From: Burkholderiaceae bacterium
Lineage (GTDB): Bacteria; Pseudomonadota; Gammaproteobacteria; Burkholderiales; Burkholderiaceae_C
DNA length: 45,361 nucleotides
Assembly: GCA_016790515.1 (NCBI GenBank)
Contig: JAEUOY010000149.1
Span: 1-45,361, forward strand
Reading direction: 5' to 3'
Made by a program: the position numbers and the translations under genes. Below are positions 35,453 to 38,538 of the stretch, in pieces (positions within the stretch are counted from its first letter, which is position 1; each line of letters starts with the position of its first letter). The notes beneath the pieces were generated by a model. It saw nothing but the letters and a program-made list of their open reading frames with translations. It made no database searches and was not told the DNA's origin.

Positions 35453-35540
35453 AGGTTCGCGGCGAAAAGGGTTCCAGCTGTTGCCTGACAACAACGCGCG
35501 GCGGTACGCCAGGCCAGCGCGGCTGCGCTACGCTCGCCCC

Positions 35541-36173
35541 ATGCCGACGATCGACGAACTGATTGGCAGCGCCGACCTGGCGTTGCGCACGCTCAGTCAC
35601 AGCGCCCGGGCCGGCCGGCCGATGCCGCGGCCCGAAGGCGCGGTGGCCGACGACGCCCTGACCCCCGAACAGCGCCGCCTGTCGGGCGCGCTGATGCGGG
35701 TGAACCACGTCGGCGAGGTCTGCGCCCAGGCGCTGTACGCTGCCCAGGCACTGTCCGCGCGCACTCCCGATCTGCGGGCACAGATGGAGGCCGCCGGGCG
35801 CGAGGAGACCGACCACCTGGCCTGGACCGAACGCCGGCTGGCCGAACTGGGCGACCGCACGAGCCTGCTGAACCCGCTGTGGTACGCCGGGGCGTTCGCG
35901 ATCGGACTGGCCGCCGGCCGTGCCGGCGACCGCGTCAGCCTGGGCTTCGTGGTCGAAACCGAGCGCCAGGTCGAGGCCCATCTGGCCAGCCACCTCGAAC
36001 GGCTGCCGGCGGCCGACGAGGCCTCGCGTGCGGTGGTCGCGCAGATGAAGGTCGACGAAGCCCGGCACGCCGACGAAGCGCAGCAGGCCGGCGCCACGGC
36101 CATGCCGGCGCCGGTGCGCTGGCTGATGCGCGCCGCGGCGCGGGTGATGACGCGGACGGCGCATCGGATCTGA
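35541..36173 (+). CDS. coq7: Demethoxyubiquinone hydroxylase Coq7 (ubiquinone biosynthesis)
   Basis: A 210-residue di-iron monooxygenase that adds the last ring hydroxyl in ubiquinone synthesis. The ferritin-like ligands are visible: Glu59 in [13 protein letters not shown], Glu89 and His92 in [10 protein letters not shown], a Glu in the [12 protein letters not shown] helix (139 or 141), and Glu173/His176 in [10 protein letters not shown] hydrophobic hairpin ([15 protein letters not shown]) fits peripheral membrane binding. The ATG at 35541 gives the family N terminus; longer in-frame extensions upstream run through the porin promoter region and are rejected. Confidence 0.94.
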
Positions 36174-36194: not shown

Positions 36195-36617
36195 TCAGAC
36201 CTCGACGATCTCGCAGCTGGTGGTGATCTCGGCGGTCTCGCCGAGCATGATCGTCGCCGAGCAGTATTTTTCGTGCGACAGCGCGATCGCCCGCAGCACG
36301 GCGGCTTCGGCCAGCCTGTGGCCGCGGACGATGAAGTGCAGGTTGATGCGGGTGAAGACCTTCGGATCGGCCTCGGCGCGGTCGGCCTGCACCTTCAGCT
36401 CGCAGCCGGTCACGTCGTGGCGGCCGCGCTTGAGGATCAGCACCACGTCGTAGGCAGTGCAGGCGCCGGCGCCGGCCAGCAGCGTCTCCATCGGCCGCGG
36501 CGCCAGGTTGCGGCCGCCGCCGTCGGGCGCGCCGTCCATCGTCAGCAGGTGGCCGCTGCCGGTCTCGGCGACGAAGCTCATGCCGGCGCCGCTCAGCCAG
36601 TGAATCGTGCATTCCAT
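36195..36617 (-). CDS. OsmC/Ohr-family protein
   Basis: A 140-residue cytoplasmic protein with the two family cysteines, Cys53 in GAGACTAYDVV and Cys119 in HEKYCSATIML, which in OsmC/Ohr reduce organic peroxides. The early Glu/Arg-type region (RNLAPRPMETLLAGAG) is present. This looks like the YhfA-type branch more than Ohr itself, so peroxidase activity is inferred. The start (MECTIHWLSG) is set by GGAAGG 7 bases upstream. Confidence 0.9.
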   Translation of the reverse strand: MECTIHWLSGAGMSFVAETGSGHLLTMDGAPDGGGRNLAPRPMETLLAGAGACTAYDVVLILKRGRHDVTGCELKVQADRAEADPKVFTRINLHFIVRGHRLAEAAVLRAIALSHEKYCSATIMLGETAEITTSCEIVEV

Positions 36618-36758
36618 CGGGTTGCCTTCCAGGCGCCTGCGCCCAGGGTTCGGGTTGCGTCGGCGCCATTGTCGTTGCACGCCGACGCCGCACCGAAGCA
36701 GTGCAGCCGTGCCCGCAGGCCTGGAGGGGCCTCACTAATCGCGACGGCGGTGGTCATA

Positions 36759-36787
36759 TTGCAGCGCAGCAATGCAGACGCTAGACT
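36759..36787 (+). promoter_or_regulatory. Sigma70-like promoter of the small RNA/leader
   Basis: TTGCAG (36759-36764) and TAGACT (36782-36787) are separated by exactly 17 bp and match 4 of 6 bases each. Predicted start is about 36794. It is not embedded in any gene and precedes a structured region and strong terminator. Confidence 0.6.
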
Positions 36788-36815
36788 GGCATCGTCAGCA
36801 GCCGCCGCGATCCGG

Positions 36816-36869
36816 ATGCCGCGGCTGCAGCGAGAGTTGTCTCCTCCACCTCCTCCATGGGTGGATTGA
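36816..36869 (+). CDS. Putative 17-residue polyproline leader peptide
   Basis: ATG CCG ... TGA encodes MPRLQRELSPPPPPWVD. Residues 10-14 are five consecutive prolines, a sequence class known to stall ribosomes unless EF-P acts. The proline codons form the left arm and loop of hairpin 2, and the stop codon (36867-36869) overlaps the first pairs of the terminator stem, a spatial arrangement like that of attenuation leaders. No canonical ribosome site precedes the ATG, so translation is unproven and the frame could be incidental to the C-rich RNA. Confidence 0.35.
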   Translation: MPRLQRELSPPPPPWVD

Positions 36870-36898
36870 GCCCGGGGTTCCGACCCCGGGCTCTTTTT
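36868..36898 (+). terminator. Strong intrinsic terminator upstream of ilvA
   Basis: An 11-bp GC-rich stem (36868-36878 with 36883-36893) with TCCG loop, followed by TTTTT. It lies 63 bp before the ilvA ATG on the same strand, so it ends a transcript that starts upstream of ilvA, not one from ilvA. Confidence 0.92.
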
Positions 36899-36960
36899 CG
36901 TGCGTCGCGGGCGGCGGCTATCATGTTGCGCCGCACAAACCACAACCCGAGGCAAGCCCG

Positions 36961-38538
36961 ATGGTCCGCGCGAAGACATCCGCCAAGCTCGCTGCCGCTG
37001 CGCCCAGGGCGACCGGCAGCGCGCCCGACTACCTGAAGAAGATCCTCACGGCGCGGGTCTACGACGTGGCGATCGAGTCGCCGCTGGACGCCGCGCGCAG
37101 CCTGTCGCGCCGCCTCGGCAACACGGTGTGGCTCAAGCGCGAGGACCAGCAGCCGGTCTTCAGCTTCAAGCTGCGCGGCGCCTACAACAAGATGGCGCAC
37201 CTGTCGCGAGAGGCGCTGGCCCAGGGCGTGATCTGCGCCTCGGCGGGCAACCATGCCCAGGGTGTGGCACTGTCGGCCCGCAAGCTGGGCTGCCGCGCGG
37301 TGATCGTGATGCCGGTGACGACGCCCAAGCTGAAGATCGATGCGGTGGCCGCGCTCGGCGGCGAGGTGGCGCTTCACGGCGACAGCTATTCCGACGCCTA
37401 CGCCCATGCGCTGGAGCTGCAGAAGGCGCAGGGGCTGACCTTCGTGCACCCTTTCGACGACCCGGACGTGATCGCCGGCCAGGGCACGATCGCGATGGAG
37501 ATCCTGCGCCAGCACGAAGGGCCGATCGACGCGGTCTTCGTCGCGATCGGCGGCGGCGGGCTGGTCTCGGGCGTGGCCAGCTACATCAAGGCGGTGCGGC
37601 CCGAGATCAAGGTGATCGGCGTCCAGACCCGCGATTCGGACGCGATGGCGCGCTCGGTGAAGGCCGGCCGCCGCGTGACCCTGGCCGACGTCGGACTGTT
37701 CTCCGACGGCACCGCGGTCAAGCTGGTCGGCGAGGAGACTTTCCGCATCGCCCGCGAACTGGTCGACGACTTCGTCATCGTCGACACCGACGAGGTCTGC
37801 GCGGCGATCAAGGACGTGTTCCAGGACACCCGCAGCATCCTCGAGCCGGCCGGCGCGCTGGGCGTGGCGGCGATCAAGCAGTACGTCGAGCAGCAGAAGT
37901 GCAAGGGCCAGACGCTGGTGGCGATCACCTGCGGCGCGAACATGAACTTCGACCGCCTGCGCTTCGTCGCCGAACGGGCCGAGTTCGGCGAACAGCGCGA
38001 GGCGCTGTTCGCGGTGACGATCCCCGAGGAGCGCGGCTCGTTCAAGCGCTTCTGCGAGCTGGTCGGACCGCGCGCGGTGACCGAGTTCAACTACCGCATC
38101 TCCGACGCGAAGATCGCCCATGTCTTCGTCGGCGTGGCGATCGCCCGGCGCGACGAGGCCGACAAGATCGAGCGCAACTTCGCGCGCCACGGCTTCGCCA
38201 CCGTCAACCTGACCGACGACGAACTGGCCAAGGAGCATGTGCGGCACATGGTGGGCGGGCGCTCGCCGCTGGCGGCCGACGAGCGTCTGTTCCGCTTCGT
38301 CTTCCCCGAGCGCCCGGGCGCGCTGATGCGCTTCCTGTCGAGCCTGCACCCGGACTGGAACATCAGCCTGTTCCACTACCGCAACCAGGGCGCCGACTAT
38401 GGCCGCATCCTGGTCGGCATCCAGGTGCCCAGCAAGACCGCCGCCGACCGCAAGGCCTTCAAGCAGTTCCTCGATGCGCTGGCCTACCCCTGCGTGGAGG
38501 AATCTGGCAACCCGGTGTATCAGTTGTTCCTGCGCTGA
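36961..38538 (+). CDS. ilvA: Threonine ammonia-lyase, biosynthetic
   Basis: A 525-residue PLP enzyme that turns L-threonine into 2-oxobutanoate and ammonia, the first committed step to isoleucine. The PLP lysine is Lys70 in PVFSFKLRGAYNKM; SAGNHAQGVALSA and the phosphate-binding AIGGGGLVSGVA loop follow. The C-terminal third (from about 345) has two ACT-like regulatory modules (ALFAVTIPEERGSFKRFCEL and LFRFVFPERPGALMRFLSSL), the sites of isoleucine inhibition and valine activation in the long biosynthetic form. The ATG has GAGGC upstream. An in-frame ATG at 36772 would run through the terminator and is rejected. Confidence 0.96.
   Translation: MVRAKTSAKLAAAAPRATGSAPDYLKKILTARVYDVAIESPLDAARSLSRRLGNTVWLKREDQQPVFSFKLRGAYNKMAHLSREALAQGVICASAGNHAQGVALSARKLGCRAVIVMPVTTPKLKIDAVAALGGEVALHGDSYSDAYAHALELQKAQGLTFVHPFDDPDVIAGQGTIAMEILRQHEGPIDAVFVAIGGGGLVSGVASYIKAVRPEIKVIGVQTRDSDAMARSVKAGRRVTLADVGLFSDGTAVKLVGEETFRIARELVDDFVIVDTDEVCAAIKDVFQDTRSILEPAGALGVAAIKQYVEQQKCKGQTLVAITCGANMNFDRLRFVAERAEFGEQREALFAVTIPEERGSFKRFCELVGPRAVTEFNYRISDAKIAHVFVGVAIARRDEADKIERNFARHGFATVNLTDDELAKEHVRHMVGGRSPLAADERLFRFVFPERPGALMRFLSSLHPDWNISLFHYRNQGADYGRILVGIQVPSKTAADRKAFKQFLDALAYPCVEESGNPVYQLFLR

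Follow-up and report, generated by a model that had tools for sequence, protein, structure and literature searches.

A predicted RF02278 small RNA of a Burkholderiaceae bacterium with a putative PhaR operator over its −35 box

A short stretch between an osmC-family gene and ilvA in a Burkholderiaceae bacterium has the appearance of a gene for a structured RNA, and raises the question of what this RNA is, whether it is free or belongs to the ilvA message, and what might govern its expression. The stretch lies in contig JAEUOY010000149.1 (assembly GCA_016790515.1), of which positions 1 to 45,361 were analysed and are called the window here. An earlier note on this DNA had left the RNA unassigned. 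It is a member of RF02278 (Betaproteobacteria toxic sRNA): positions 36838-36899 of the plus strand match the family model over positions 1-64 of 64 with 64.9 bits against a gathering threshold of 50, and the layout of the family, two hairpins of which the second is the terminator together with C/U-rich unpaired stretches, is present. The same genome holds one RF02278 copy above the cut-off; a weak match elsewhere in it (C118:31784, 20 bits) was judged to be due to chance. Rfam gave no other RNA at gathering in the window and ARAGORN no tRNA. The window scores too low for membership of MmgR (RF00519, 15.3 bits, gathering 41) or of ar14 (RF02344, 27.8 bits, gathering 58.8), and its 27.7 bits against anti-hemB of Burkholderia (RF02837) are far under the gathering of 49.5. 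The consensus of ar14, a family of the Alphaproteobacteria, does have C/U-rich CUCCUCC stretches like the window, and Rhizobiales sRNAs with anti-Shine-Dalgarno hairpin loops have been described (PMC3927594).

The predicted full-length RNA (36794..36899, plus strand) begins 7 nt past the −10 box and ends at a T run. Its 106 nt fold at −57.7 kcal/mol against −39.9 ± 3.7 for shuffled sequences (z −4.78, none of 200 as good). The overall architecture proposed in the earlier note, a trans-acting sRNA that has a promoter and a terminator of its own and an anti-Shine-Dalgarno stretch, was borne out. The 5′ leader hairpin (36798..36828) has the 8-bp outer stem described there (36798-36805/36821-36828) and a 3-bp inner stem. 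Downstream of it lies the RF02278 core (36838..36899), which is also the predicted processed short form and which holds GUCUCCUCC (36839..36847), a first anti-Shine-Dalgarno stretch that corresponds to Site 1 of the Bordetella pertussis RNA S17 (PMC11722255). The second hairpin, CU-rich and equivalent to Site 2 (36845..36865, stem 36845-36851/36859-36865), contains UCCUCC at 36851-36856; the stem is closed at its top by a wobble pair of the first U of this motif (36851), and the loop itself reads CCUCCAU. The intrinsic terminator (36868..36898), with an 11-bp stem (36868-36893) and TTTTT at 36894-36898, agrees with a terminator scan of 36600-37000 that returned three matches where 0.2 were expected, two of them overlapping at this place and one elsewhere on the other strand.

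Conservation of these elements was followed in 91 copies scoring at least about 43 bits, the window's own included (the first set), which come from a search of 120 relatives with an RF02278 match at E 0.01 in 95 and above the cut-off in 66. The stretch TGTCTCCTCCA is unchanged in all 29 copies that were aligned. Pairing was assessed in the same 29 of the 91 copies with a structure derived from that alignment. The CU-rich hairpin (helix 1) is paired in every lettered cell of its six counted pairs, five of which never vary, and it says little on covariation because it hardly varies. In the terminator (helix 2) all five counted pairs changed on both sides, and 82.1% of cells are paired. The leader upstream of the Rfam core has a median length of 43.5 nt. 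Among 52 copies with the promoter motif discussed below and a −10 box, two leaders were too short and were left out; 38 of the remaining 50 have z below −1.5 (mean −2.2) despite diverging sequence, and many of the leader hairpins end about six bases before the core.

The closest known relatives are ncS27, ncS03, ncS05 and ncS62 of Burkholderia cenocepacia and Hsnc059/063/086/107 of Herbaspirillum, which share with the window RNA the core sequence, two hairpins, two C/U-rich anti-Shine-Dalgarno stretches and a terminator. The window locus differs from these members by a hairpin in the 5′ leader and by what is probably a PhaR-type operator at the −35 box; three of the four B. cenocepacia members are said to have a "common upstream motif", the letters of which are in Fig. 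S3. Judged by sequence, the RNA resembles S17 as well as ncS27, and like S17 it is found near coq7. S17 has a TTGC-type −35 box, a 17-bp spacer, a −10 box and a start 7 bp further on (PMC11722255), and the window contains the same succession of coq7 neighbourhood, TTGC-type −35 box, 17 bp, −10 box, leader and RF02278 core. S17 differs in lying directly beside coq7, whereas osmC stands between coq7 and the RNA in the window, and in the length of its long form, S17L, about 190 nt against about 105 (PMC11722255). RNase E shortens S17L to a 67-nt form, S17S, that begins about where the RF02278 core begins (PMC11722255), and ncS27 likewise has a longer, processed form. Since S17L is processed near the matching place, the window RNA would be expected in two forms, of about 105 and about 62 nt, the shorter probably released by an RNase E cut near 36837. 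Site 1, this likely processing and what is likely a PhaR-type operator over the −35 box were all missed in the earlier reading.

Whether the RNA is free or part of ilvA control, the alternative that the earlier note had put forward, can be weighed from the neighbourhood. The window encodes Coq7, an OsmC-family protein, threonine ammonia-lyase and ErpA (NCBIfam). The osmC-family gene (36195..36680, minus strand, longest reading frame) is the divergent conserved neighbour, coq7 (35535..36173, plus strand) lies beyond it, and ilvA, which encodes threonine ammonia-lyase (36961..38538, plus strand), is downstream and was taken as a separate unit. Of the 90 first-set copies with 150 nt of upstream sequence, 61 have a divergent osmC-family gene no further than 600 nt upstream, and coq7 was found at 49 of these 61 osmC-linked loci, which is a lower bound as the loci are short. 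An ilvA leader or attenuator would account for the start of ilvA 62 nt past the T run and for its presence within 900 nt downstream in 52 of the 91 copies, mostly of the window's own family. A second, named set was gathered with a pattern for the RNA core only and comprises at least 80 GTDB loci with titles, 78 of them with enough upstream sequence and one of them repeating a locus of the first set. Among the matches listed, ilvA is downstream in only 12 of the 64 second-set copies with room for it, and the form of the RNA is kept where ilvA lies elsewhere. The listed Bordetella and Achromobacter loci with both genes have the order osmC, coq7, RNA. Moreover, a strong terminator separates the sRNA from ilvA. 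Of the relatives, S17 proved to be a free RNA on Northern blots and in 5′-RACE (PMC11722255), and ncS27 was mapped by dRNA-seq and 3′-RACE. With the separating terminator, a form kept without ilvA and relatives described as free sRNAs (PMC11722255, PMC5688073), ilvA attenuation was rejected and has next to no probability in our estimate; the window RNA is best read as a free sRNA. A second PhaR-like site, TTGCGCCGCACAA (36926-36938), lies just before ilvA and is treated as unproven because a 9-mer of this kind occurs between RNA and ilvA in only 9 of 52 loci.

The promoter of this free sRNA is the element that gives it a candidate regulator. The −35 box TTGCAG (36759..36764) and the −10 box TAGACT (36782..36787) are 17 bp apart and located where the earlier note had placed them. 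They match the sigma-70 hexamers at only 3/6 and 4/6 positions and were not reported by a strict sigma-70 scan, so that on one sequence they are weak and by themselves not beyond chance. They gain credibility from their conservation among osmC-linked copies: a TAnnnT box follows the TTGC-type box at 16-18 bp in 51 of 58 osmC-linked copies with the motif in the first set, at exactly 17 bp in 33 of these 51. The listed second-set copies of Bordetella and Achromobacter have the operator core with TTGCAT or TTGCAA, 17 bp and a −10 box, and the S17 promoter itself reads TTGCAT, 17 bp, TACTAT (PMC11722255). Its start, mapped by 5′-RACE, lies 7 nt past the −10 box, and the start in the window was therefore placed at about 36794.

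The −35 box is inside the palindrome ATATTGCAGCGCAGCAA (36756..36772), the core of which, TGCAGCGCA (36760-36768), contains most of the box. For PhaR of Ralstonia eutropha the palindrome YTKNTGCRNYGCANMAR has been deduced, and an operator was defined as this sequence with at most three mismatches in a promoter (PMC12849132). The window palindrome agrees with it at 15 of 17 positions and has the core TGCRNYGCA at nine of nine. The footprint of PhbF/PhaR in Herbaspirillum likewise covers a protected region with TG[N]TGC[N]3GCAA (PMC3206438). PhaR is encoded in the window's own genome, as far as a profile search can tell (G000:C127:96357-96536, E 1.6e-29). We asked of the copies how far the 9-mer TGCRNYGCA follows the locus and how far it follows PhaR.

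In the first set the 9-mer occurs within 150 nt upstream in 58 of 61 osmC-linked copies and in 3 of the 29 others, the three being among 17 unlinked copies in genomes with PhaR and none among 12 in genomes without it. Counted by genome, it precedes 60 of the 77 copies scoring at least about 43 bits where PhaR is encoded and 1 of 13 where it is not (Fisher p 2e-6), against 3.1 and 0.16 expected from dinucleotide shuffles. At 50 bits or more the figures are 55 of 67 (3.0 expected) and 1 of 10, and with one genome per other family they are 8 of 10 with PhaR and 0 of 9 without (p 0.0007). Since 12 of the 13 copies from PhaR-less genomes are not osmC-linked, this correlation partly reflects the lack of an osmC-linked copy and not of the site; both the absence of the copy and the absence of the site fit control by PhaR. 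One genome (G078) has nine RF02278 matches at E 0.01, eight of them above the cut-off (including L056, L057, L060, L064, L071, L076 and L078); osmC linkage among these eight is confined to L064, which has the 9-mer, and L076 is the one copy of the other seven that has it too.

The second set, which was selected by the RNA core, gave a similar picture among the matches listed. The 9-mer lies within 200 nt upstream in 56 of 78 copies, where shuffles give 2.67, a stretch 1.3 kb downstream holds it in 3 of 60, and five scrambled palindromes were found in 0-2 of 78. PhaR is present in 34 of 39 and in 36 of 38 of the second-set genomes listed. With the repeated locus removed, the site is found in 53 of 70 listed copies with PhaR and in 2 of 7 without (p 0.018). 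The split by linkage is not sharp among these matches (38 of 52 osmC-linked, 12 of 19 unlinked and 6 of 7 near a contig edge), and several of the unlinked listed copies that bear the site adjoin coq7.

The same palindrome could be read as an extended −35 element of an ordinary RF02278 sRNA with a plain sigma-70 promoter, not as a PhaR operator. The overlap of the −35 hexamer with the palindrome is what such a reading predicts, and among the matches listed 17 of 70 named copies in PhaR genomes, among them loci of two Cupriavidus, two Burkholderia and two Accumulibacter, do not have the strict 9-mer, which also counts against PhaR. For a sigma-70 promoter, however, GCA at +6 to +8 is dispensable, and so are T(−3) and A(+11), with the first base of the core counted as 0. 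The last two positions are outside both the 9-mer and the −35 hexamer and were not used in selecting sites, yet T(−3) is kept in 49 of 51 and A(+11) in 51 of 51 first-set sites, and in 55 and 58 of 60 sites among the second-set matches listed. Nor would a plain promoter explain why the 9-mer is so rare in the first-set copies not linked to osmC, which need promoters as well, or why in the 7 of 58 copies mentioned above the site is off −35 spacing to any TAnnnT box. The identical 9-mer also precedes all phasin genes examined. Taken together, these observations make a plain promoter an unlikely explanation, and the palindrome is better read as a PhaR-type operator. That reading has to accommodate, besides the copies without the strict 9-mer, a site in the PhaR-less first-set draft G017 and sites kept in two PhaR-less MAGs of the named set, among the matches listed.

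If the palindrome is an operator of PhaR, it should recur at the genes of PHB granules. In all 41 phasin genes examined, 21 with a weak RF02278 match behind them and 20 others chosen by hand, TGCRNYGCA stands no more than 260 nt before the phasin domain, and 40 of them have at least two such sites; as the 9-mer is present before these genes it behaves as an operator of the PHB regulon in the clade. The window's own genome conforms in part: phasin matches on C10 and C149 have two sites and one site, respectively, of the pattern TTGCRNYGCAVMA just upstream, and the weakest match, on C127, has no site of this pattern nearby, which speaks against PhaR. A different regulator that recognises TGC-N3-GCA might bind in its place, and the PhaR of this genome was identified only by its profile match (G000:C127). 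Against this stand the identity of the 9-mer with the published PhaR core (PMC12849132), its presence at phasin promoters of the same genomes and the way in which the site tracks PhaR, and we regard another regulator as decidedly improbable. PhaR remains our candidate for the protein that would bind the window promoter.

The phasin genes hold a further RNA. Among 73 weaker RF02278 matches listed (25-50 bits), 21 from as many genomes follow a phasin domain on the same strand at a distance of 117-377 nt, and the window's own genome has one of these (G000:C10:2706-2778, L135). The motif GUCUCCU follows within 330 nt of the phasin stop codon in 37 of the 41 genes, that is in all 21 selected by such a match and in 16 of the 20 others (loci L135, L138-L169, L172 and L175-L177). 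These segments fold with a hairpin, and a second stem with a T run is present in 35 of the 37, the segments of L151 and L167 having been truncated before folding. Twenty of the 41 phasin loci were scanned and gave no Rfam family at gathering. On this evidence the 3′ UTR of phasin would contribute a second RNA with the same seed to the same regulon, a candidate new 3′-UTR sRNA. At one locus (L136, 1612-1686, minus strand; G110:C44:66111-66185) a C/U-rich terminator RNA is divergent from phaR with TGCATCGCA between the two, and both phasin matches of that genome are on another contig; the arrangement is what one would see had a phasin gene disappeared and left its 3′ RNA behind.

Control of an sRNA by PhaR has a precedent: MmgR of Sinorhizobium meliloti, an sRNA of the PHB regulon, is a direct target of PhaR/AniA, which represses it through a site containing TGCACCGCA (PMC12542648, PMC8401924). 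Binding of S. meliloti PhaR to the MmgR promoter in gel shifts was described as "Efficient" and an altered palindrome abolished the shift (PMC12542648). MmgR differs from the window RNA in being alphaproteobacterial, in belonging to another sequence family and in lowering phasin levels. PhaR leaves promoters when PHB granules form (PMC12849132, PMC12542648). In the proposed scheme the window sRNA would be transcribed from its own sigma-70 promoter from about 36794 and end at the terminator at 36868-36898. PhaR, the granule-binding repressor, would sit on the palindrome at 36756-36772, cover the −35 box and keep the sRNA off as long as PHB is absent. Once granules form they would titrate PhaR, and the sRNA would be made together with phasin, the mRNA of which would end in the second RNA with the same seed.

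The two C/U-rich sites would then pair, probably with Hfq, with the Shine-Dalgarno regions of uptake and catabolic mRNAs, the translation of which would fall so that carbon influx is throttled as stores fill. This step draws on the relatives. According to a preprint (PMC11722255), S17 is an Hfq-binding RNA that undergoes RNase E processing and represses BP2158; many transporter genes are linked to it, and either Site 1 or Site 2 covers the ribosome site. NcS27 reduces growth on several carbon sources, and a review portrays it as balancing metabolic shutdown (PMC10987360). RF02278 members rise in biofilm, under starvation and in glucose medium, the last by 8.0-fold for ncS03, 6.9-fold for ncS05 and 4.3-fold for ncS27, and ncS27 slows growth (PMC5688073). 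In the window's own genome AGGAGACA, the exact complement of the conserved seed UGUCUCCU, occurs at 46 sites before ATG, and the variants AGGAGTCA and AGGAGAAA, which are not composition-matched controls, at 7 and 10. Thirty of the 46 sites were translated and their Pfam names sorted by eye after being seen; enrichment of uptake and carbon-catabolic functions among them was not significant (15 of 30 against 6 of 17 controls, p 0.38). The 15 include three ligases with an acetyl-CoA-synthetase N-terminus, two TctC, one DctP and one SBP_bac_1. The conserved PhaR-type site in the promoter, PhaR being the sensor of stored PHB, a bioplastic, suggests that this RNA, which can block ribosome-binding sites, damps the uptake and use of nutrients as carbon stores grow.

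The family name points to another function, that of a growth-arresting RNA acting as a general translation inhibitor or as a toxin component, since it derives from clones toxic in Escherichia coli (PMC5688073, PMC4603805, PMC7011215). Overexpressed S17 affected E. coli only modestly, leaving exponential growth unimpaired and entry into stationary phase modestly impaired (PMC11722255), so that function cannot safely be read from the name. Growth attenuation by NcS27 depends on the substrate, some being affected and others not (PMC10987360), and the named neighbours of the window RNA are housekeeping genes. The likelihood of a toxic role is accordingly very small. We consider it probable that the window RNA is a free RF02278 sRNA which putative PhaR represses until PHB granules titrate the repressor, and which then lowers the translation of uptake and catabolic genes.

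A wider proposal, which in our judgement is as apt to fail as to hold, is that the osmC/coq7-linked RF02278 RNAs as a group are regulators of PHB status. PhaR would control two RNAs that carry the GUCUCCU seed, the free sRNA and one released from the 3′ end of the phasin mRNA, the filling of granules would shut off the translation of carbon uptake and activation genes, and the repressor at the S17 promoter would be PhaR. The authors of the S17 study postulate repression of this promoter, PS17, and leave the repressor unnamed; S17 responds to BvgAS, which counts against PhaR (PMC11722255).

No regulator named for RF02278 members, no link between PhaR and RF02278 and no mention of the phasin 3′ RNA was found in the literature, in a survey that covered the 2019 paper on NcS27 through a review and kept to papers without their supplements. 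Of four papers that deal with RF02278, PMC11722255 mentions neither PhaR nor PHB in its main text, and the same holds for the passages searched in PMC5688073; in PMC4603805 "phar" occurs only inside "Pharmaceutical", and in PMC7011215 PHB occurs only in the reference list. What is new, from the letters of the promoter, is that an RF02278 −35 box falls within the core of the published PhaR operator, TGCRNYGCA. A PhaR-type operator would tell which regulator acts on an RF02278 sRNA and by which signal, the free or granule-bound state of PhaR, and the phasin 3′-UTR RNA offers another entry to this circuit. According to a 2021 review, what riboregulation does in Cupriavidus necator was undeciphered (PMC8401924); if the proposed control is true, the betaproteobacterial PHB producers would gain a riboregulator.
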